Position numbers and translations under genes: made by a program. A stretch of DNA of 64,000 bases from Halothermothrix orenii H 168 (GTDB taxonomy: Bacteria > Bacillota > Halanaerobiia > Halanaerobiales > Halothermotrichaceae), in the NCBI RefSeq assembly GCF_000020485.1, contig NC_011899.1, forward strand, positions 683,937 to 747,936. The letters run 5' to 3'. Every line of letters starts with the position of its first letter. Positions within the stretch are counted from its first letter, which is position 1. The notes below the pieces were generated by a model. That model saw only the letters and a list, made by a program, of their open reading frames with translations. It was not told the DNA's origin and did no database searches. This document shows, in pieces, positions 1,408 to 27,449 of the stretch.

Positions 1408-1770
1408 ATCTACCACTCCTTAATTATAATGTGATAATTAACAAATTTATTAAATCCTGATTATGTAAAGTTTATATAAAATAAAGCAGTCACTCTTTTA
1501 AGTCTCTATTTCCCCGTTAAAGTTAATTATTATAAATTTTATTATGAAATGTATTTGAGTTTGATTTTTTTAAAAATGGCAAATGGTAATAAAGTGTCTT
1601 TTATATATTTATTCAGATAATGGGATTATTGTGCAAAATAAAATTATTTTAGATTATATTAATAACAGTAAATTCAGCAACATTTTATTTATTATGCCAA
1701 AATCCTACAAAAATATATTGACAAGTCATACAGATATTGCTATAATTATAAAAAAGGAGGGGACAAACAT
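1408..1770. other. Intergenic region, divergent fxsA / abrB
   Basis: This AT-rich gap of about 360 bp separates divergent genes. The only clear element is the sigma-A promoter of abrB at 1718-1746. A 63-codon open frame (1583-1774) runs through the promoter but has no ribosome binding site and a low-complexity composition, so I do not call it a gene. Confidence 0.6.
1718..1746 (+). promoter_or_regulatory. Consensus sigma-A promoter of abrB
   Basis: TTGACA (1718-1723) and TATAAT (1741-1746) are separated by exactly 17 bp, a perfect vegetative promoter. Transcription should start near 1753, giving an 18-nt leader that contains the AAAGGAGGGG ribosome binding site. Such strength suggests that control comes from repression, possibly by the AbrB product itself. 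Confidence 0.9.
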
Positions 1771-2031
1771 ATGAAAGCTACTGGTATTGTAAGGAAAATT
1801 GACGATTTAGGTAGAGTTGTTATACCTAAAGAATTACGTAGAACTATGAATATCGAGAAGAAAGACCCTATGGAAATCTATGTTGATGAAGACACAATAA
1901 TTCTCAAAAAATATGAACCGGCCTGTATTTTCTGTGGAAATGCTGAAAACACTATTGATTATATGGGTAAGTTTATCTGTAAGGATTGCCTCAACGAAAT
2001 GGTAGAAGTCTCGAATGGTAAGAGTGCCTGA
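1771..2031 (+). CDS. AbrB/SpoVT-type transcription regulator with C-terminal zinc-finger-like tail
   Basis: The 86-residue protein starts with the swapped-hairpin AbrB DNA-binding domain: MKATGIVRKIDDLGRVVIPK, then an ELR motif (residues 1-50). These proteins form dimers or tetramers that bind AT-rich promoters and govern the transition state. Residues 52-74 add a CxxC...CxxC cluster (CIFCGN, CKDC), which probably binds zinc. This C-terminal form is common in clostridial AbrB paralogues and differs from B. subtilis AbrB. It is a single-gene unit with its own perfect promoter and terminator. The ATG follows AAAAAGGAGGGG at good spacing. Confidence 0.92.
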   Translation: MKATGIVRKIDDLGRVVIPKELRRTMNIEKKDPMEIYVDEDTIILKKYEPACIFCGNAENTIDYMGKFICKDCLNEMVEVSNGKSA

Positions 2032-2064
2032 ACATAATTCTAAATTAAATACTTATTTCTGAGT

Positions 2065-2093
2065 ACCGCAACTGTAAAAAGTTGCGGTTTTTT
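2065..2093 (+). terminator. Terminator of abrB
   Basis: The ACCGCAACT / AGTTGCGGT stem has a 6-nt loop and is followed by TTTTTT. A second small hairpin (TACCCG ... CGGGTA, 2095-2117) comes right after. Confidence 0.88.
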
Positions 2094-2194
2094 ATACCCG
2101 TGGTAAGATACCGGGTATTATTTTTTAATGTCTTTATATAAAAAGCAGGAGATAAGGTAAAAACCGGAGAATTCCTATGGTGGAGGAGATATCT

Positions 2195-3571
2195 ATGGAT
2201 GAATTAAAATTTATTCATGCGTCTGATATACACCTGGGGAGTGTATTACATACAGGGACAACACATAAAGGGGATATTGGGGAAATTGTTAAAAAGGCTA
2301 CCTATAAGGCATTTTCCAGGATCTGTAATCACGCAATTGAATTTGAGGTAGATTTTGTTGTATTGTCCGGTGATATTTTTGATAGAGAGTCAAAATCAGT
2401 AGTTGCCATGAAACATTTTATAGGGGAATGTAAAAGGTTAAATGAAAAAGGTATTCCTGTATACCTGATTGCCGGTAATCATGATCCATTGCGGGAACAG
2501 GTGAATATTATGGATTTACCCCCTGATGTATTTATCTTCAGTGGAGATGAAGTAGAAAAGGAAGATTTTATTTCAGATGATGGCAGGATTTTAGCCAGAC
2601 TTATCGGACAATCTTATAAATCAAGGGCCCTTTCTGAAAAGATTCACCTTCAATATAACTCAGGAGAAAAAAGTGGGGTCTGGAACATTGGTTTATTGCA
2701 TACCCAGCTTGAACCCGGTAACAAGAATTATATACCATGTTCTTTACAGGAGTTAAATGAGATTAATAATATACATTACTGGGCCCTGGGCCATATTCAC
2801 CAATGTAAAATTTTACAACAGGGATTGCCAACCATAGCCTATCCAGGTATTCCCCAGGGTCGTGATTTTGGGGAGCAAGGTCCGGGAGGATGTCTTCTTG
2901 TAAACCTTGTACCTGAGAAATCCCCTGCTGTTAAATTTGTACCTGTATCCCCGGTTATCTGGAAAAGGATTGAAGTTAAGATAGGTGAAGGAAATACTGG
3001 TAAGGAAAACGAGAATCCACGTAATATTACAGAACTCCAGGAACTTTTATATAAAAAAGCCAGGGATTTAGTAAATGACATTCAGTTAAAGCCCCAGGGT
3101 TTAGATATACCGGCTGTTAAGACTGAAAATGTTGTTGAAGGTCTTGTAATTCAGTGGGTTATAACCGGTCGCAGTCATATTCATAACCTGTTGCAGGAGC
3201 AGGACGATGAGGAGATAGAGGAAGTTCTAATAGAGGGATTAAAATCTTTTCATGAAAGCAGACCTTTTCTCTGGACTGATTCTATTATTATAAGGACCGG
3301 TAAGCCTCTACCTGACATGAATATAATGAAAAAACACAATCCTGTATTTCAGGAAATAGAAAATATATCTTTTGATATTCTCGGGAAAGAAGAATTACAA
3401 AAAGAACTACTGGAAGAACTGGGTCAGGTCTGGGAACTGGCTGAAGATCATGAGAATATTAATGAAACAAAGATACAATTGGATAAAGAAACCATGAAAA
3501 CAATTATTGATCAGGCCCGACATCTGGTAATAGAAAAAATTTTAGAGAGGGGGGGCTGGGGTGAGGATTAA
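2195..3571 (+). CDS. DNA repair exonuclease, SbcD/Mre11-like metallophosphoesterase (YhaO type)
   Basis: The 458-residue protein begins with the calcineurin-like phosphoesterase core: KFIHASDIHLGS, VVLSGDIFDRES, PVYLIAGNHDP and WALGHIHQ. These supply the metal-binding Asp, His and Asn residues of Mre11/SbcD nucleases. The C-terminal 200 residues resemble YhaO more than SbcD. YhaO works with the large ATPase YhaN, encoded next with an 11-bp overlap, so the pair probably forms an SbcCD-like complex that cleans DNA ends. An upstream in-frame ATG exists at 2177, but GGAGGAG (2182-2188) lies 6 nt before the ATG at 2195, which I take as the start. Confidence 0.88.
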   Translation: MDELKFIHASDIHLGSVLHTGTTHKGDIGEIVKKATYKAFSRICNHAIEFEVDFVVLSGDIFDRESKSVVAMKHFIGECKRLNEKGIPVYLIAGNHDPLREQVNIMDLPPDVFIFSGDEVEKEDFISDDGRILARLIGQSYKSRALSEKIHLQYNSGEKSGVWNIGLLHTQLEPGNKNYIPCSLQELNEINNIHYWALGHIHQCKILQQGLPTIAYPGIPQGRDFGEQGPGGCLLVNLVPEKSPAVKFVPVSPVIWKRIEVKIGEGNTGKENENPRNITELQELLYKKARDLVNDIQLKPQGLDIPAVKTENVVEGLVIQWVITGRSHIHNLLQEQDDEEIEEVLIEGLKSFHESRPFLWTDSIIIRTGKPLPDMNIMKKHNPVFQEIENISFDILGKEELQKELLEELGQVWELAEDHENINETKIQLDKETMKTIIDQARHLVIEKILERGGWGED

Positions 3572-10450: not shown

Positions 10451-12091
10451 TTGAAATCTTTATGTAATGGAAAAAGACTTATATTATTAATAATAATACT
10501 TGTGTTAGTTACAAACCAACTGGTTCTGGCCGGTACATTTGCACCGGCTTCATTAAATATTGCTGGAAAGGATGTAGTCGGGCTCAGTAGTTTTCAGACT
10601 GTAAGTGAAGAGAGTGTAATTCCCCTAAATCTTTCATCTGATGCATTAAAAGCATTGTCCCATCAGAATTTTGAAATCGTTGGTTATACTAATTTAGATA
10701 CCTTGAAAAAAGATGATTATAGGTCAACGGTGGTTTATTATGTAAAGCCAGGGGATAGCCTGTATAAAATTGCCAGCAGATTTAATATTACCACACAGGA
10801 AATAAAAAATTTCAATAATTTAAAAACAAATGTCCTGTATGTTGGGCAAAAATTATATATTCCGGTAGCTGAACAAAACACAGAGGTTTATTATGTAAGA
10901 GCAGGAGATAGTTTATATACAATTGCCGGGAAATTTAATACCACCATTTCCCGGATAAAACAGGTTAATGGTTTGACTTCGGACATGCTTTATATAGGCC
11001 AGAAGTTATATATACCAACTGGTGATAAACAGACTGACCAGAAAGAACAGGTTTATTATGTAAAACCCGGGGATAGTTTATACAATATTGCCAGAAGATT
11101 TAATACCACAGTACAGGAGTTAAAAGATTATAATGGCCTTAAGTCAAATATGCTTTATGTGGGACAGAAATTATACATCCCATCTCCTGATAAGTCCAGT
11201 GATAACAGGGGAGAAATGGGGAAGGTTATATATTTTGTGGAACCGGGAGACAGTCTCTACTCAATTGCCACGAAATTTAAGACAACAGTTGAAAGGATAA
11301 AGGAAATTAATGCTCTGGCTTCAGACAGTCTTTATGTCGGGCAAAAGCTTTTTATTCCTTATCCAGAAGGTAGTAATACTGACCCCAAGGTTATTTATTT
11401 TGTGAAACCCGGTGATACCCTTTATATAATCGCTATAAAATTCGGAACTACAGTAGAGCTGATAAAAGAAGTAAACAATTTAAGCAGTGAAATTTTATAT
11501 GTGGGTCAGAAGCTTTTAATTCCCGGTCCTCCTGAACTGGATGAAAAAGCTGATTTTGACCTCACCTATACTGTTGAACCCGGTGATAATATTTTCAGGA
11601 TTGCCAGTAAATTTGGCATGGAAGTTAGTAAAATTATGTCATACAATGACCTGACATATGGTCATTTAAGGGAAGGGCAGCAAATTAAAATTCCCTTTTT
11701 CCTTCCTGATAGAGAACTTAACAATGGATTTCAGGTAACTTCAGAGGAACTGGAACTCCTTGCCAGAGCAGTGTATTCAGAAGCCAGAGGTGAACCCTTT
11801 AAAGGTCAGGTAGCGGTAGCTGCAGTTATTATCAATAGAATCAGCCATCCCTTTTTCCCCAATACGATAAGGGATGTAATTTTCCAGCCCTGGCAGTTCA
11901 GTGCGGTTCATGATGGCCAGTTCTGGCTTGAACCCAACCAAACAGCATATATTGCAGCTAAAGCTGCTTTAAGAGGTTGGGATCCAACTAAAGGAGCTAT
12001 TTATTATTATAACCCTGATACTGCAACTTCTGACTGGGTTTTTTACCGGAATGTAGTTATTAAAATAGGTAATCATTATTTTGCTGTGTAG
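10451..12091 (+). CDS. Cell-wall hydrolase: six LysM repeats plus SleB-type domain
   Basis: The 546-residue secreted protein has a signal peptide (residues 1-27, ending LVLAG) and six LysM repeats between about residues 90 and 420, five of them nearly identical in VxYxVxPGDSLYxIAxxF. A C-terminal Hydrolase_2 (SleB/CwlJ) domain follows (about 430-546), with ELLARAVYSEARGEP, AVAAVIINR and WQFSA motifs. This family cleaves spore-cortex peptidoglycan or acts as a general wall amidase/lytic enzyme. The repeat count is well above the one or two seen in many SleB proteins. TTG start after AAGGGGG, 22 bp downstream of the protease gene, suggesting one operon. Confidence 0.92.
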   Translation: MKSLCNGKRLILLIIILVLVTNQLVLAGTFAPASLNIAGKDVVGLSSFQTVSEESVIPLNLSSDALKALSHQNFEIVGYTNLDTLKKDDYRSTVVYYVKPGDSLYKIASRFNITTQEIKNFNNLKTNVLYVGQKLYIPVAEQNTEVYYVRAGDSLYTIAGKFNTTISRIKQVNGLTSDMLYIGQKLYIPTGDKQTDQKEQVYYVKPGDSLYNIARRFNTTVQELKDYNGLKSNMLYVGQKLYIPSPDKSSDNRGEMGKVIYFVEPGDSLYSIATKFKTTVERIKEINALASDSLYVGQKLFIPYPEGSNTDPKVIYFVKPGDTLYIIAIKFGTTVELIKEVNNLSSEILYVGQKLLIPGPPELDEKADFDLTYTVEPGDNIFRIASKFGMEVSKIMSYNDLTYGHLREGQQIKIPFFLPDRELNNGFQVTSEELELLARAVYSEARGEPFKGQVAVAAVIINRISHPFFPNTIRDVIFQPWQFSAVHDGQFWLEPNQTAYIAAKAALRGWDPTKGAIYYYNPDTATSDWVFYRNVVIKIGNHYFAV

Positions 12092-12125
12092 CTGAAAAAG
12101 GAGTTGTATAGCTGAAAAAGGAGTT
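12089..12125 (+). repeat. Tandem 17-nt duplication covering the stop codon
   Basis: TAGCTGAAAAAGGAGTT occurs at 12089-12105 and again at 12109-12125, period 20. The first copy includes the stop codon of the LysM-SleB gene, and each copy contains a ribosome-binding-site-like AAAGGAG with no start codon suitably placed after it. Confidence 0.9.
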
Positions 12126-12130
12126 ATAAA

Positions 12131-12160
12131 AAGCAGCCTTATGGGGCTGCTTTTATTTTT
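12131..12160 (+). terminator. Terminator after the LysM-SleB gene
   Basis: AAGCAGCC / GGCTGCTT is an 8-bp stem with a 6-nt loop, followed by TTTTATTTTT. Confidence 0.85.
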
Positions 12161-12316
12161 AATTAAATTCTGTATATAACCAGGAACATTAATTATTAAA
12201 GTACCCGGTTTTAAATAAAGAAATAATTACCTGAAGGAAAAACGGGAAACGGCTTTAATTTAATATAAGGGTAGAATCCTTTCTATGTAAGTCTAAACCC
12301 GGGGGAGGGTAGTCTT

Positions 12317-12895
12317 ATTTTTAAGATAAAAAAATTATTTTATATATTAACTATCATATTATTAATAATTTTAAATGGATGTAGTGGTGAAAAGTCAAAT
12401 TTAATTGGTTCAGATCCTGTTTCCTATGGAAGAACTGTATCTGATACTGAAGCCCTGCAGGCTTTAAATGTAGCCAGAAATCAGCTAGGGAAACCCTATA
12501 CCTGGGGTGGTAGGGGACCTGATGTCTTTGATTGTTCAGGGCTGATAACATATTCCTATAAAACTGCCCTTGAAAGGGATTACATATTTAAAATAGGACC
12601 TATAATATACCATGATGCTACCATGAGTGACCTCTATAACTGGAATACAACCCTGGTTCCCCTTGAAAATATGAGACCCGGTGATATTATATTTTATACC
12701 AGCAAAGAGGATGATGTAACTCATGGTGGATTGTTTGTTAAATGGAATGATTGTGATAACTTTACCTATATTCATGCTTCAGCCGTCTATAAACAGGTTA
12801 TAACAGAAACGTGGACAGTTGGTGAAGAAAAATGGGGGTTGAAGCTTGTGGCTGGCGGAAGGTTAAAAAAGTTCAATAAAGAGGAAAATTATTAA
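12317..12895 (+). CDS. NlpC/P60 family lipoprotein hydrolase, apparent ATT start
   Basis: The frame is open from 12275, but no ATG, GTG or TTG occurs before an internal ATG at 12623, which would cut the catalytic domain in half. An ATT at 12317 sits 7 nt after GGGGGAGGG (12301-12309). It yields a 192-residue protein with a lipoprotein signal (KIKKLFYILTII..., lipobox LNGC). The NlpC/P60 core follows: nucleophile Cys in FDCSGLITYSY, the GDIIFY strand, catalytic His in VTHGGLF and a third polar residue in YIHASAVYK. These enzymes cleave gamma-D-Glu-diaminopimelate links in peptidoglycan. The ATT start is an inference; a sequencing frameshift hiding a normal start is the alternative. Confidence 0.82.
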   Translation: MFKIKKLFYILTIILLIILNGCSGEKSNLIGSDPVSYGRTVSDTEALQALNVARNQLGKPYTWGGRGPDVFDCSGLITYSYKTALERDYIFKIGPIIYHDATMSDLYNWNTTLVPLENMRPGDIIFYTSKEDDVTHGGLFVKWNDCDNFTYIHASAVYKQVITETWTVGEEKWGLKLVAGGRLKKFNKEENY

Positions 12896-12896
12896 A

Positions 12897-12919
12897 ACCA
12901 CCGGGTAGGTGGTTTTTTT
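12897..12919 (+). terminator. Terminator of the NlpC/P60 gene
   Basis: ACCACC / GGTGGT is a 6-bp stem with a GGGTA loop and seven T residues, 1 bp after the stop codon. Confidence 0.85.
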
Positions 12920-13016: not shown

Positions 13017-14660
13017 ATGAAAAAAATAGTTATTATTTTTGTATTTAGTTTATTGTTAGTAATATTAAATAATAGTCTGGTTATCAGGGCATATACTACA
13101 CCATCACCAGAATTACAAACTATCCAGCTGAAAAGTCGCTCTATTGAGTATGAAAGTAGTGGAAAGTTATTATCGGAATTGATAAAACTGTTTTATGAAG
13201 AACGAAACTATAATCCTGCCTGGTGTAGTCAGACAGAGATCTATCCCCAGGCCTACATATTATTAAAAATAATAAAAGAGGCTGACCGGGAAGGCCTTGA
13301 CCCCTCGGCCTATTATTATTCCCTGATTTCAAATTATGTCAGGGAACTGGAAAATAAGATTATAAGAAATAGTAGTATTACCAGGGAAGTTGCGCTCAGC
13401 TTTGAATTGTTAATGACAAAAGTTTATCTAGATTATACCCTTGATTTATTGACAGGTTATACCAGAAACGGAATGTTTAATAAAATGTATGATAAACACG
13501 AGCTTATTAAGAAGTTAAACAGAGCGATAGAACAAGAAAGCCTGGGGAAATTTTTTATTGATTTATATCCCGGTCAGGAGCTGTATTTCAGAATGAGAAA
13601 GGCCTTATCCCACCTGAGAAATATATCATCTAAAGACTGGCCCAGAGTAGGTTATGGCCCCCCATTACAGCGCGGTGACTATAGTAAGAGAATCATTGAA
13701 CTCAGGAGACGGCTTTATTTGTCTGGAGACCTGTCTGAGGAACAATTAAATACAGGTACCTATTTTGACAGGGAACTGGAAAAAGCAGTCAGGAAATTTC
13801 AAAGGAGGCATGGGTTAAAAGATAGTGGAATCGTTGATGATAAAACAATTGAGGCCCTGAATATTCCCGTAAAAGAAAAGATAAATAAAATTATAATAAA
13901 TATGGAGAGACTAAGATGGCTTCCCAGGGATAATCCTGACCTGTGTGTAATGGTAAATATTCCAGAATATAAGCTAAAGGTTATTAGGGAAGATAAGGTT
14001 ATCCTTGAATCTAAAGTTATTGTAGGAAGTAGAGAAAATCAGACTCCATCCTTTAATGACAGTATTGAGTATATTGTTTTAAATCCTTACTGGTATATAC
14101 CAGATAATATTACCAGATATGAATTGTTACCTCAAATAAAAAAAGACCCGGATTATCTGGACAAACATAATATTCAGATTTTAAGTGGTTTTGAAGGAGA
14201 AGTAAAAATTATACCAGAAGACCAGATAAACTGGGATGAGGTAACACCTGAAAACTTTAGTTATAAATTACGTCAGAAACCAGGCCCGGGTAATTCCCTG
14301 GGTAGTATTAAATTTTTGTTTCCCAATGATTTCAATGTATATTTACATGACACTCCATCCAGGGGATTATTTGAATACAGGGAACGGGCTTTAAGTCATG
14401 GATGTATCAGGGTGGAAAGACCTCTGGAGCTGGCGAAAGTTCTTATAAGCCAGAGCAACTGGAGTTATAATGAAGTAATTAGTATAATAAATAGTGGTAA
14501 CAGGGAGGTTATTGAACTAAAAAACCCTGTTCCAATCTATTTAATATATTTGACTGTCTGGGTTGATGATGATGGTGTAATACATTACCGGGAAGATATT
14601 TACCAGCGTGATAAAAAACTTGTTCATGAAATGATGAAAAAGGCTGTTAACGATTCATAG
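13017..14660 (+). CDS. L,D-transpeptidase of the YcbB type with peptidoglycan-binding domain
   Basis: The 547-residue exported protein has an N-terminal signal/anchor (residues 1-26). A scaffold region (40-190) resembles the YcbB N-terminal domain. A PG_binding_1 module follows (about 220-280: IELRRRLYLSGDL, AVRKFQRRHGLKDSGIVD). The YkuD catalytic domain lies at about 300-490, with HDTPSRGLFE and the active-site SHGCIRVERP (Cys about 462). Such enzymes form 3-3 peptide cross-links in peptidoglycan or attach proteins to it. Length and domain order match YcbB/LdtD. ATG after GGGGGAA. A hairpin overlaps the stop codon. Confidence 0.92.
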   Translation: MKKIVIIFVFSLLLVILNNSLVIRAYTTPSPELQTIQLKSRSIEYESSGKLLSELIKLFYEERNYNPAWCSQTEIYPQAYILLKIIKEADREGLDPSAYYYSLISNYVRELENKIIRNSSITREVALSFELLMTKVYLDYTLDLLTGYTRNGMFNKMYDKHELIKKLNRAIEQESLGKFFIDLYPGQELYFRMRKALSHLRNISSKDWPRVGYGPPLQRGDYSKRIIELRRRLYLSGDLSEEQLNTGTYFDRELEKAVRKFQRRHGLKDSGIVDDKTIEALNIPVKEKINKIIINMERLRWLPRDNPDLCVMVNIPEYKLKVIREDKVILESKVIVGSRENQTPSFNDSIEYIVLNPYWYIPDNITRYELLPQIKKDPDYLDKHNIQILSGFEGEVKIIPEDQINWDEVTPENFSYKLRQKPGPGNSLGSIKFLFPNDFNVYLHDTPSRGLFEYRERALSHGCIRVERPLELAKVLISQSNWSYNEVISIINSGNREVIELKNPVPIYLIYLTVWVDDDGVIHYREDIYQRDKKLVHEMMKKAVNDS

Positions 14661-17695: not shown

Positions 17696-19125
17696 TGCCA
17701 GTAGTCAGAAAACGGGTTCCAATGAAAAATCAACCTCCTGATGAAAGAATAAAAAATTTTAAAGAGGTTCCCCTTGGTTATAATAAAAAAGAAGCCATTA
17801 AAGAAGCCGAGCGCTGCCTTCAATGTAAACACTCACCCTGTGTTTCAGGTTGTCCGGTGAATGTACCTATCCCCCGGTTTATAAAAGCCTTAAGAGAAAA
17901 TGATATTAAAGGGGCAAACAGAATAATAAAGTCTAAAAATAATTTACCGGCAATCTGTGGCCGGGTCTGTCCCCAGGAAAACCAGTGTGAAAAAGTATGT
18001 GTTTTGGGTCAAAAATTTGAACCGGTAGCCATCGGTAGGCTGGAAAGATTTGTGGCTGATTTAATACTTGAGCAAGAGAAAAATAATAATTCAGGAGAAA
18101 AGACTGTAACCGACGGAGATAATATTTCTACTAATTCTGATTCCAGAGACAGGGTTGCGGTGGTTGGCTCAGGACCGGCAGGACTTACTGCTGCAGCCGA
18201 TCTGGCTAAAGAAGGTTTTAAAGTAACAGTTTTTGAAGCCCTGCATGATACCGGTGGTGTTCTTCGTTATGGTATTCCTGAATTTAGATTGCCAAAGTCT
18301 ATTTTAGACCAGGAAGTTGAAAATATAAAAAAACTCGGTGTGGAATTTAAATTAAATGTAATAATCGGAAAAACAATAACAATTGATGAATTATTTGAAG
18401 ACGGGTATAAAGCTGTTTTTATTGGAACTGGTGCTGGATTGCCCCTATTTTTAAATATTCCTGGTGAAAATCTTAATGGGGTTTATTCAGCCAATGAATT
18501 TTTAACCAGGGTTAACCTGATGAAGGCCTATAAATTTCCTGAGTTCAAAACACCGGTTAAGGTTGGCAGGAGGGTTGCGGTAATTGGTGGTGGAAATGTG
18601 GCTATGGATGCTGCCAGAACAGCAAAAAGGCTCGGAGCTGAAAAGGTAATGGTTGTGTACCGGCGTTCAGAAGAGGAAATGCCTGCCCGGAATGAAGAAA
18701 TTGAGCATGCCAGGGAAGAGGGGATTGAATTTATATTATTGAGCAGTCCGGTTAAAATTCATGGGGAGAACGGTCTGGTAACTGCTCTCGAATGTATTAA
18801 AATGGAACTTGGTGAAAAAGATAAATCAGGACGGAGGCGACCCATTCCGGTTGAGGGTTCTAACTGGAACATGAAATTGGATACTGTTATTGTTGCCATT
18901 GGTCAGACTCCCAATCCTTTATTAACCAGTAATTCCCGTGGAATTGAGACTGAATCCTGGGGTGGTATTAAAGTTGATGAAAATCTATCCACTTCACGTC
19001 AGGGTGTTTTTGCCGGTGGTGATGTAGTTACCGGGGCGGCTACAGTTATCGAAGCTATGGGGGCTGGAAAGAAAGCGGCCCGTAGTATTTTAGAGTATTT
19101 GCGTAGCGATAATAAAGATAAGTAA
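17695..19125 (+). CDS. nfnB: NfnB / GltD-like NADPH-dependent oxidoreductase subunit
   Basis: The 476-residue protein begins with a cysteine-rich region binding two [4Fe-4S] clusters (CLQCKHSPCVSGCPVNVPIP and CGRVCPQENQCEKVCVLG). It continues as a GltD-type flavoprotein: FAD-binding VAVVGSGPAGLTAAADL (about residues 153-169), NADP-binding VAVIGGGNVAMDAARTAKR and the final FAD-contact GVFAGGDVVTGAATVIEAMGAG. Because no glutamate synthase large subunit is next to it and nfnA overlaps it, it is NfnB rather than GltD. The complex makes NADPH from NADH plus reduced ferredoxin in the cytoplasm. Confidence 0.92.
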   Translation: MPVVRKRVPMKNQPPDERIKNFKEVPLGYNKKEAIKEAERCLQCKHSPCVSGCPVNVPIPRFIKALRENDIKGANRIIKSKNNLPAICGRVCPQENQCEKVCVLGQKFEPVAIGRLERFVADLILEQEKNNNSGEKTVTDGDNISTNSDSRDRVAVVGSGPAGLTAAADLAKEGFKVTVFEALHDTGGVLRYGIPEFRLPKSILDQEVENIKKLGVEFKLNVIIGKTITIDELFEDGYKAVFIGTGAGLPLFLNIPGENLNGVYSANEFLTRVNLMKAYKFPEFKTPVKVGRRVAVIGGGNVAMDAARTAKRLGAEKVMVVYRRSEEEMPARNEEIEHAREEGIEFILLSSPVKIHGENGLVTALECIKMELGEKDKSGRRRPIPVEGSNWNMKLDTVIVAIGQTPNPLLTSNSRGIETESWGGIKVDENLSTSRQGVFAGGDVVTGAATVIEAMGAGKKAARSILEYLRSDNKDK

Positions 19126-19141
19126 AGGGGGAGATTTTTAA

Positions 19142-19993
19142 GTGGGTAAGATTATTGATGGGAAGAAAATTGCCAGTGAGATCAGGAATGAATTGAAGGA
19201 AGAAGTAAAAAAATTTACTGAAGAGGGGCGCCCTCCAGGACTGTCAGTAGTTCTGGTTGGAGATGATCCTGCGTCCCGGACCTATGTCAGAATGAAAGAG
19301 AAGGTGGCCAAAGAAATTGGTATATATTCAAAAGTGGATTACCTCTCCAGGCAGACAACTCAGGATGAGTTGCTTGATATTGTCGACAAATTAAATAATG
19401 ATGAAAAAATTGATGGTATACTGGTTCAGTTACCTTTACCTGATCATATCGATGAAAAAGCTGTGATAGAAGCTATTAGTCCTTTTAAAGATGTGGACGG
19501 TTTTCATCCTATAAATACAGGAAAACTATTTAGTGGGATGACCGGGCAGCGGTTTGAGGCCTGTACCCCCCTCGGTATTATTGAGCTACTTGACAGGGAA
19601 GGAATAGAAATAGATGGGAAAAAGGCAGTTGTAGTAGGAAGGAGTAATATTGTAGGTAAACCGGTGGCCCATTTATTACTGGAAAGACATGCTACTGTTA
19701 CAGTTTGCCATTCCCATACCGCAGATCTGGGTATTGAAACCAGACAGGCAGATATACTGGTAGTTGCAGCCGGTCGTCCCAAACTTGTCAAGGGCGAAAT
19801 GGTCAAGGAGGGTGCTGCTGTAATTGATGTGGGGACCAACCGGGTTGATGGTCATCTGGTCGGGGATGTTGATTTTGAAGCAGCCCGCCAGAGGGCTGGT
19901 TACATAACTCCGGTGCCCGGAGGAGTAGGTCCGATGACCATAGCCATGCTTATGAAAAATACTGTTAAAGCCAGGAAGTATCATGGAGTCTAA
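19142..19993 (+). CDS. folD: FolD, methylenetetrahydrofolate dehydrogenase / cyclohydrolase
   Basis: The 283-residue protein has the usual FolD length and signatures: GLSVVLVGDDPASRTYVRMKEK near the N-terminus (catalytic Tyr and Lys nearby), DGILVQLPLPDHI, and PVPGGVGPMTIAMLM at the C-terminus. The nucleotide-binding segment is VVGRSNIVGKPVAHLLL. It interconverts methylene-, methenyl- and formyl-tetrahydrofolate. GTG start 8 nt after GGGGGAG. The end overlaps xseA by 11 bp. The folD-xseA-xseB-ispA order is the standard Bacillus/Clostridium arrangement. Confidence 0.97.
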   Translation: MGKIIDGKKIASEIRNELKEEVKKFTEEGRPPGLSVVLVGDDPASRTYVRMKEKVAKEIGIYSKVDYLSRQTTQDELLDIVDKLNNDEKIDGILVQLPLPDHIDEKAVIEAISPFKDVDGFHPINTGKLFSGMTGQRFEACTPLGIIELLDREGIEIDGKKAVVVGRSNIVGKPVAHLLLERHATVTVCHSHTADLGIETRQADILVVAAGRPKLVKGEMVKEGAAVIDVGTNRVDGHLVGDVDFEAARQRAGYITPVPGGVGPMTIAMLMKNTVKARKYHGV

Positions 19994-22495: not shown

Positions 22496-22539
22496 TATCC
22501 ATGGACTTATGAAAGCATAATAAAAAGTTTAACATAAAT

Positions 22540-23115
22540 CCCATAGGTGGTGCAGTATTCTAGTCAACACGCTATCCCTGAAGACGGGCCTAAAAATCCG
22601 TCAAGGGCACACCGATGAAGTTCCTGGTGTTGGCTTCTGACGCCCAGTCGGGGGTCAGTGCTGGGAGTTAAGGGAGAGGGGCGATCCACAAAGGCATGTG
22701 GGCGTTGACCCCGATCCCGTGGAGGCCTGAATTCCTTTTCTGGGGAAAAAGGAATTCGGGTAAACCTGCATGTATGGAAAGATGCATGCAGTGTAGCCTG
22801 CTTTGAGTGGCTCAGGGGACAGTAGAATGATCCTGCTTTGGTACCGGGCAGGGTAATGCTACTGGAAACCTGGGCTGCAAAAGAAGCTAGGGGATAGGAC
22901 AGTGTTGCCAAGGAAAACTTCTAGACTGTCCGGTGATGGCCGGGGCATACCAGGGATTAAAGTGTGGTCTTAGTGGTAATCCAGTCCTGTAGTGGGTGAC
23001 CCTACAGTCGGGATTTTAAAGGGAAACCGCTCCCCTGGTGACAGGGGAGCAATCCCGGGGGAAAACCTACTGGACCTAAGCCGCAGCGTTTACCTGGTAT
23101 GCTACCACCTATGGG
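22540..23115 (+). ncRNA. ole: OLE RNA (ornate, large, extremophilic)
   Basis: This 576-nt block has no coding frame on the plus strand, is far richer in GC than its flanks, and is closed by a terminal helix pairing CCCATAGGTGGT near 22540 with CCACCTATGGG at 23105-23115. Internal hairpins are plain: GAATTCCTTTT / AAAAGGAATTC (22729-22757), a CTGCATG / CATGCAG stem after it, and GCTCCCCTG / CAGGGGAGC capped by a GTGA (GNRA) tetraloop (23029-23050). Position between ispA and an OapA-type membrane protein followed by dxs is the known OLE locus in extremophilic Firmicutes. OLE forms a membrane ribonucleoprotein with OapA and is linked to tolerance of alcohols, cold and Mg2+ stress. No alignment was run; the match is from location, size and remembered motifs. 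Confidence 0.93.
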
Positions 23116-23163
23116 TGATTTTTATACAAATTATATTTTCAGTTATAAATTTTTATCATAATA

Positions 23164-25792: not shown

Positions 25793-26589
25793 ATATTTTA
25801 TTAACAGATAAGGGTTTTTTTGAAACAAGAAGCCGGGCTAAAAGGGCAATAATGGCCGGAGATGTATTGGTTAATGGTCAGCTGGAAACAAAGGCTGGAA
25901 CCAGGGTTAGTGAAGATGTTAAAATCAGAGTTAAAAATAAAATTCCCTATGTAAGTCGTGGCGGATTGAAACTCGAGAAAGCCCTTAATAACTTTGATAT
26001 TAATGTTGATGGGAAAGAAGCTATTGATATCGGGGCTTCAACCGGAGGGTTTACTGATTGCCTTCTCCAGCATGGAGCCCGGAAGGTTTATGCTATAGAT
26101 GTTGGATACGGTCAGCTGGCCTGGAAGTTAAGGCAGGATAACAGGGTCGAAGTTCTAGAGCGGACTAATTTTAGATATCTTACACCTGAAGATTTACCTG
26201 TTAAAGTACCCATAATAGTCAGTGATGTATCGTTTATTTCATTGAGGTTGATTATTCCACCTGCCCTGAAGTTTTTAACTGAAAACGGGGATATAATCTG
26301 TTTGATTAAACCCCAGTTTGAGGCAGGTCCTGATAGAGTTGGGAAAAATGGTGTAGTTAAAGAAAAAAAGGTCCACCGTCAGGTTCTTAAAGAGATGTTT
26401 GATTTTTTTATTGGTCAGGGACTGTCAATTGTTAACCTGGACTATTCTCCAATTACCGGGGCTTCCAGTAAAAATATTGAGTTTTTAGTCCAGTTAAAAA
26501 AAACGGTTGATACCGATTTTGACAGTAATTACTGGGATAAACGAATCAATAAAGTAATATCGCAGGCCCATAAGAGGTTAGGGGGTTGA
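25771..26589 (+). CDS. tlyA: TlyA family rRNA 2'-O-methyltransferase (hemolysin-like)
   Basis: The 272-residue protein has an N-terminal S4 RNA-binding domain (residues 3-62: RLDILLTDKGFFETRSRAKR, AGDVLVNG) and an FtsJ-like methyltransferase domain with the SAM motif AIDIGASTGGFTDCLLQHGA (about 87-106), then a catalytic-region SDVSFISLRLI and LIKPQFEAG. TlyA enzymes methylate cytidines in 16S and/or 23S rRNA. The gene normally stands between dxs and nadK, as here. The ATG lies within the last codons of dxs, indicating translational coupling. Confidence 0.93.
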   Translation: MARKKRLDILLTDKGFFETRSRAKRAIMAGDVLVNGQLETKAGTRVSEDVKIRVKNKIPYVSRGGLKLEKALNNFDINVDGKEAIDIGASTGGFTDCLLQHGARKVYAIDVGYGQLAWKLRQDNRVEVLERTNFRYLTPEDLPVKVPIIVSDVSFISLRLIIPPALKFLTENGDIICLIKPQFEAGPDRVGKNGVVKEKKVHRQVLKEMFDFFIGQGLSIVNLDYSPITGASSKNIEFLVQLKKTVDTDFDSNYWDKRINKVISQAHKRLGG

Positions 26590-26594
26590 TATAA

Positions 26595-27449
26595 ATTTTA
26601 ACAGTAGGGGTTGTCCTTAATACCGATAAAAAAGAGGGATTTAATATAGTTTGTTCGTTTTTAAACATGTTGGAAAAAAGGGGATTAAATTATCGTGTTG
26701 AAAGCCAGACTGCCAGAGCTCTAGGGTTTGATAGGAATAGCTGTCCCCTGACCAGAATGAAGGAATTGGTTGATTTAGTTTTTATATTTGGAGGAGATGG
26801 TACCCTGCTTCATACAGCCCATCATTTTATCGGTGCTGATATACCTCTGTTAGGTGTAAACCTGGGAAGGCTTGGCTTTTTAGCTGAGGTTGAGGGCAAT
26901 GAATTAAGCAAAGCTCTTGAGTTTATACTAGAAGAAAACTATAAAATAGAAAAAAGAATGTTACTGGAAGCTAAAGTATATAGTGATGGGGAGGAGGTAT
27001 ACCGGAGCTATGCCCTTAACGATGTAGTTATAAACAGGGGTGCCAGGTCAAGGATGGTCAGTATCCAGCTCTATATTAATCACCAGGCTGTGACATCATA
27101 CCGGGCAGATGGTTTAATTATTGCAACCACTACAGGATCGACTGCTTATTCTCTTTCGGCCGGGGGGCCTATCGTTAATCCTAAATTAAAAGCGATGGTA
27201 GTTACCCCTATTTGTCCCCATACGCTATATATAAGGCCTATGGTTGTTTCTGAAGAAGAAAAATTGAAAGTAACTGTTGAAGGACAGGATGCTATGATGT
27301 TTACAGCTGATGGGCAGTATAATTATCCTTTATCAACAGGAGATGAAATCTTAATCTCTGCTTCCAATAAAGAAATTAAGATGGTAAAGTTGCCAGACAG
27401 GAATTTTTATTCAATACTTCATCAGAAGATGAAAGTGGGGTTAGTTTAA
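26595..27449 (+). CDS. nadK: NAD kinase, apparent ATT start
   Basis: The NadK fold needs its first strand, seen here as LTVGVVLNTDKKEG. This begins directly after an ATT at 26595, which is preceded by AGGGGGTT (26580-26587) at 7-nt spacing. An in-frame TAA at 26592-26594 rules out any earlier start, and the first ATG (26667) would delete the first beta strand and helix. With ATT the protein is 284 residues, normal for the family. Catalytic GGDGTLL is at residues 66-72 and the substrate motif TTGSTAYSLSAGGPI follows. It makes NADP from NAD and ATP. Coupled after tlyA (5-bp gap). Confidence 0.9.
   Translation: MLTVGVVLNTDKKEGFNIVCSFLNMLEKRGLNYRVESQTARALGFDRNSCPLTRMKELVDLVFIFGGDGTLLHTAHHFIGADIPLLGVNLGRLGFLAEVEGNELSKALEFILEENYKIEKRMLLEAKVYSDGEEVYRSYALNDVVINRGARSRMVSIQLYINHQAVTSYRADGLIIATTTGSTAYSLSAGGPIVNPKLKAMVVTPICPHTLYIRPMVVSEEEKLKVTVEGQDAMMFTADGQYNYPLSTGDEILISASNKEIKMVKLPDRNFYSILHQKMKVGLV

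Follow-up and report, generated by a model that had tools for sequence, protein, structure and literature searches.

The gene of translation initiation factor IF3, infC, starts with AUU in Escherichia coli, with ATC in Streptomyces and with AUA in Staphylococcus aureus. Besides infC, non-canonical starts are already known in pcnB and in the Staphylococcus genes cvfC1 and ccpN; the NlpC/P60 lipoprotein gene described here is a probable addition to this list. AUU and AUA starts of S. aureus located behind an extended Shine-Dalgarno (SD) sequence were shown in 2026 to give about 10% of the AUG output in poor medium (PMC13009471). Another study reports a GTC start repressed by IF3 in Streptomyces sigR (PMC5472188). 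A start-codon survey counts two switches to AUU among approximately 69,000 ancestral starts (PMC5622118), and a further paper mentions ATT-starting genes of E. coli along with B. subtilis infC (PMC1805508). Searches of the open-licence literature for start codons in H. orenii or Halanaerobi*, and for an AUU start, infC and nadK, returned nothing on this lineage.

The window (the whole 64,000-nucleotide stretch of Halothermothrix orenii H 168 DNA analysed here) contains what is, in all likelihood, an intact and probably monocistronic gene for an NlpC/P60 peptidoglycan endopeptidase lipoprotein translated from a near-cognate AUU at 12317. We arrive at this reading because the frame has no usable canonical start, carries a strong SD site at normal spacing, encodes the expected domain and active-site residues, and has homologues that look alike. 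The features of the gene are the following:

12275–12895, plus strand: open frame of 206 codons, stop to stop, holding the NlpC/P60 gene (read from the sequence)
12301–12309, plus strand: SD site, GGGGGAGGG (read from the sequence), −11.4 kcal/mol with the anti-SD
12317–12319, plus strand: proposed start codon ATT (spacing, SD energy, homologues)
12317–12895, plus strand: proposed coding sequence of the NlpC/P60 lipoprotein, 192 aa (frame, Pfam, alignment)
12317–12379, plus strand: putative lipoprotein signal peptide of 21 residues, (M)FKIKKLFYILTIILLIILNG, followed by Cys22 at 12380–12382 (by eye, alignment)
12488–12811, plus strand: NLPC_P60 domain, Pfam PF00877 (profile match)
12533–12535, plus strand: Cys73, in FDCSGL, invariant in 4/4 aligned sequences
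12623–12625, plus strand: first canonical start codon, ATG, 3′ of the catalytic Cys codon, without an SD site (0.0 kcal/mol)
12722–12724, plus strand: His136, in THGG, invariant in 4/4 aligned sequences
12773–12775, plus strand: His153, with His or Asn at the aligned position in homologues

An in-frame TAG (12272–12274) directly precedes the open frame and a stop codon ends it at 12895; the first ATG, GTG or TTG inside, ATG 12623, lies 102 codons below ATT 12317, past both the signal peptide and the catalytic Cys. The preliminary description, made from the letters alone, had placed a lipoprotein signal and a catalytic Cys motif in this frame, and both are found there. Lysine in the n-region, a hydrophobic stretch and the lipobox Cys are visible by eye, the signal ending in IILNGC, and the NLPC_P60 profile matches residues 72–179 of the frame at 5.4e-14 (52.5 bits; curated cut-off 23). 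An Asn two residues before the lipobox Cys is unusual; the homologues, with ISGC, TSGC, LPGC or LAGC, come closer to the usual lipobox. Cys73 and His136 are presumably the catalytic Cys and His of the NlpC/P60 family, and His153 is the likely third catalytic residue. The motifs FDCSGL and THGG are invariant in four aligned sequences, two homologues share 45% and 35% identity with the protein, and selection appears to act on its entire length. By a coding statistic the signal of coding begins to rise 80 codons or more 5′ of ATG 12623; the signal peptide region lies outside its reach, so this part of the frame rests on the homologues. The preliminary description had further expected gene callers to report only the form truncated at ATG 12623, which agrees with the mechanical ORF list, the sole list consulted on this point: its only entry for the frame is 12623–12895 (90 aa).

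Initiation at ATT 12317 is well supported by the sequence around it. The codon follows GGGGGAGGG by 7 nt and the GGAGG core by 8 nt, which places it within the spacing peak of the genome's ordinary starts: across 464 kb of the H. orenii genome the distance from GGAGG to the start peaks at 7–8 nt (42 and 47 cases). The anti-SD used for duplex energies was assumed to be the standard sequence, a choice supported by this spacing peak; a search for the 16S 3′ end of H. orenii itself gave no match. Among 398 coding ORFs of the same 464 kb, three frames have an exact GGAGG core 5–10 nt ahead of an in-frame codon that is non-canonical and is followed by a canonical start only after 10 codons or more; the NlpC/P60 gene is one of them, and a GrpB-family gene with ATA/ATT is another.

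Of the other readings, the one that survives best, with a small share of the probability, is initiation at a neighbouring non-canonical codon, ATA 12326 or CTT 12314. ATA 12326, the sole other ATN codon near the n-region, aligns with the ATC of a homologue discussed below and would begin a neat signal peptide (MKKLFY...), but it lies 16 nt from the SD block and pairing within the normal range amounts to −2.9 kcal/mol, against −11.4 kcal/mol for ATT. CTT 12314 has an SD energy equal to that of ATT, at 4 nt; however, to our knowledge CTT is not among the known start codons, whereas ATT is. This agrees with the earlier choice of ATT 12317 as the start-like codon at the right place, and the ATT start is probably real and functional.

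Matches to the protein with E no higher than 0.001 occur in nine of the 59 class genomes searched, H. orenii included; several of these matches are distant. The relative in G049 (L066; 45% identity) carries ATC behind GAGGAGG (−12.6 kcal/mol), and its first in-frame ATG lies within the signal peptide and lacks an SD site. The relative in G038 (L067; 35% identity) has GGAGGTGG followed by ATT (−13.8 kcal/mol), together with in-frame canonical codons at ATG 1327 (−4.6 kcal/mol), ATG 1345 (−3.8 kcal/mol) and GTG 1351 (−2.4 kcal/mol); a start at ATG 1327 or ATG 1345 is possible there. Thus, in two of the two other class genomes with an intact and readable N-terminus the best SD site precedes ATC or ATT, one of them having weak ATGs as well; this count leaves aside G002, where an assembly gap takes away the N-terminus, and the broken copy in G045. 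Four further matches (L069–L072), longer proteins of other make-up with 27–30% identity, were not counted as orthologues. In the alignment the G049 ATC falls on ATA 12326 of the window and not on ATT 12317, so the position of the start, if not the principle, has shifted. In the phylum-wide search 13 of 398 genomes match; outside the class most homologues have a usable ATG or GTG (e.g., L095 and L099), several of these being weak. Searching genome contigs with the protein retrieved nothing but an actinobacterial relative at 29%. Another relative, at 34%, is encoded on a contig catalogued as viral (L105, IMGVR_UViG_3300009854_000324).

These homologues bear on two further explanations. The first, slightly less probable than a shifted start and in our view improbable, is that the gene is decaying, its start codon lost and the frame on the way to a pseudogene. 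The patchy distribution of the lipoprotein described above and the state of the G045 homologue (L068), whose frame is interrupted, with the middle part gone and neither SD site nor start left, speak for decay; the H. orenii frame, in contrast, is complete (192 codons), with conserved active-site residues and a strong SD site at ideal spacing. The second, a little less probable again, is a sequencing error or strain-specific mutation at a true ATG. A single substitution separates ATG from ATT, and the sample of the same genome does hold frame breaks, in genes for an alanine dehydrogenase and an ABC exporter. Nevertheless, the genome is finished, its authors putting errors at fewer than 1 in 50,000 (PMC2626281), and nadK has ATT in many independent assemblies. 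Comparison with homologues likewise makes a private sequencing error unlikely, since the same gene has ATC (G049) or ATT (G038) behind a strong SD site in two other genomes. Translation exclusively from ATG 12623, the earliest ATG, GTG or TTG in the frame, is hardly credible, as this codon has no SD site, the 90-residue product would be devoid of signal peptide and catalytic Cys, and the coding signal extends well above it.

The proposed AUU start at 12317 is not the only one of its kind in the window, as had been claimed of nadK at the outset and is borne out by the following features:

26580–26585, plus strand: SD site of nadK, AGGGGG (read from the sequence)
26595–27449, plus strand: nadK, second ATT-start gene of the window, with ATT at 26595–26597 (found by frame scan)

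Elsewhere in the window, at 22531–23124 on the plus strand, lies an OLE RNA, a large extremophile RNA (Rfam RF01071, 514 bits).

The nadK comparison across the order covered the H. orenii gene and 27 of the 30 loci retrieved, leaving out a longer paralogue (L012, L017) and a locus without alignment (L013). By our reading, the starts are ATT or ATC in 16 of these 28 genes, ATG in 11 and TTG in one. Eight of the 16 (L008, L010, L014, L015, L016, L019, L027 and H. orenii) have no competing canonical codon. In the other eight, the third codon above the ATT/ATC is an ATG or TTG, in frame and abutting the SD site; such a codon is too near by the usual rule, though it might still serve as the start. 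At L009, L011, L018, L021, L029, L030, L032 and L033 this upstream codon sits on the SD site and in several cases reads ATGA or TTGA, which perhaps overlaps the stop codon of the upstream gene. For infC, again across the order, 26 of 30 loci including that of H. orenii were readable (the motif was not found at L044, L047, L058 and L059), and the start is ATC in 25 of them, H. orenii among these, and ATA in one. Judged by their sequences, several other genes of the class, including nadK, infC and others, share the device of an AUN codon behind an SD site.

How general the device may be was assessed by a codon-agnostic search among ORFs scored as coding, an orphan-SD gene being defined as one with no SD-backed canonical start in its first 40% but with a strong SD site above the first canonical codon. 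An 864 kb sample of the H. orenii genome (737 coding ORFs) yielded eight orphan-SD genes, and in six of them a correctly spaced ATT or ATA follows the SD site: the NlpC/P60 gene, nadK and genes for a GrpB-family, a YetF-like, a TPR and a 2Fe-2S protein. The remaining two are a prepilin-like gene and prfB, which has a programmed frameshift. In nadK and GrpB the Pfam domain already starts 5′ of the first canonical codon; YetF_N matches only below the cut-off, and the TPR N-terminus is without domain support. The minE gene of H. orenii (L132, complement 11620–11913) has an apparent ATC start with GGAGG at 8 nt, the next ATG having no nearby SD site; Pfam leaves MinE undecided, and it stands outside the six of eight with 7 codons where the rule is 8.

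Among three relatives, ATT, ATC or ATA is present in five of six orphan-SD genes in G011 (325 ORFs), both of two in G005 (312 ORFs) and two of three in G046 (339 ORFs), that is nine of 11, one of the G046 cases (L184) being doubtful as it resembles an internal frame break. Over the four genomes this makes 15 of 19 (14 without L184). Inside the genes of these genomes, 746 of 2670 SD-like sites (28%) have such a codon, which gives a binomial probability of 6e-6, or of 5e-5 if L184 is left out. Random damage to ATG would also produce CTG, ACG, AAG or AGG, giving a chance of (3/7)^14; as the 14 cases were not picked blind to the codon, we do not use this as a main proof. As controls, the Ligilactobacillus plasmid pMP118 has two orphan SD sites in 206 ORFs, neither with ATT/ATC/ATA, and G064, from another class of the same phylum, has none in 104 ORFs; in 100 kb of E. 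coli (66 ORFs) picked for infC and pcnB, infC was recovered, pcnB was missed and no others appeared. A further candidate control, G418 (70% G+C), was dropped, since the coding model picks out shadow frames in it, with 18 "orphans" among 125 ORFs.

The resulting rate of such starts, 14 of 1713 ORFs versus 0 of 310 in the usable controls, is suggestive of a higher frequency in this lineage but does not establish it, because the usable controls comprise only 310 ORFs without a case. The earlier suggestion that the lineage uses ATT more freely is therefore upheld in part: the excess over background and the recurrent nadK starts favour it, whereas the rate stays unproven with such small controls, and the codons involved are ATC and ATA as well as ATT.

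The survey also brought up several broken or unusual frames. The alanine dehydrogenase gene of H. orenii (L138, complement 18797–19933) has an open frame 5′ of its first canonical start, with its first codons seemingly in another frame, an N-terminal frame break that is either an error or real. The frame of the ABC exporter (L091, complement 1691–3163, H. orenii) begins within the membrane domain, at Pfam position 79, directly after a stop codon, and resembles a gene split by a stop. A DNA methyltransferase gene of pMP118 (L222, 34102–35652) has a run of ten G near the frame start, like phase-variable genes.

The surroundings of the NlpC/P60 gene are a peptidoglycan neighbourhood:

10451–12091: neighbouring gene for a six-LysM protein that also carries a Cell Wall Hydrolase domain
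12129–12154, plus strand: terminator-like hairpin setting the gene apart from the upstream gene (hairpin search)
12894–12916, plus strand: terminator-like hairpin directly 3′ of the stop codon (hairpin search)
13017–14660: neighbouring gene for an L,D-transpeptidase

Given the two hairpins, the gene is probably transcribed alone. A riboswitch or known RNA in the leader was considered and rejected, Rfam giving nothing above cut-off on 12060–12500. The leader folds no better than shuffled sequences (z 0.90 and −0.72), and promoter-like sites by the gene are about as many as shuffles predict.

We propose that the strong SD site would hold the 30S subunit while initiator fMet-tRNA pairs with AUU despite proof-reading by IF3, the SD site most likely offsetting the mismatch of the third AUU base with the initiator anticodon. 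The protein would then begin with Met and be made at a fraction of the output expected from AUG; the enzyme would be lipid-anchored outside the cytoplasmic membrane and cut peptide bonds of peptidoglycan. A low-output, IF3-sensitive start would fit a potentially harmful wall hydrolase, and we consider it most likely that this peptidoglycan hydrolase has a start of low output. Much more speculatively, and with more doubt than confidence, we suggest that the salt-loving Halanaerobiia may use AUU, AUC or AUA behind a strong SD site for about 0.5–1.5% of their genes, far above the handful of cases known from model bacteria, and that a set of these starts (infC, nadK, the NlpC lipoprotein) may be evolutionarily maintained, with the IF3 level determining how strongly a regulon covering NADP supply and wall hydrolysis is expressed.

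Common gene callers accept only ATG, GTG and TTG; if the reading of AUU 12317 as a start is right, standard annotation for this reason truncates or loses conserved genes of the class, including nadK, which encodes a key metabolic kinase. It would also yield candidate IF3-controlled genes beyond infC and make the regulatory use of near-cognate starts testable in cultured Halothermothrix and Halanaerobium, and the lineage-wide pattern of starts merits a proper survey.

Among the known systems, infC is similar in its AUN start behind a strong SD site; the E. coli gene was found by the same search, and the H. orenii gene has ATC. Unlike infC, which autoregulates via its own product, the NlpC/P60 gene codes for a wall hydrolase that has no relation to IF3, and any control by IF3 would therefore run in one direction only. 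E. coli pcnB shares the ATT start, annotated as such, but was missed by the orphan-SD search and does not encode a wall enzyme. S. aureus cvfC1 (AUU) and ccpN (AUA) combine a conserved non-canonical start, a strong SD site and low output, the last of which would be expected here as well; the evidence is experimental there and sequence-based here, and other genes of another class are concerned. In sigR, a rare start keeps output low, as it may in the NlpC/P60 gene, but the codon is GTC, the gene encodes a regulator and the IF3 effect is experimental. Finally, the protein shares its domain and its Cys and His residues with NlpC/P60 endopeptidases (MEROPS C40; e.g., PDB 7cfl and 6biq), from which it differs as a putative lipoprotein with an N-terminal part of its own, its 35–45% identity being only to uncharacterised members of the class.
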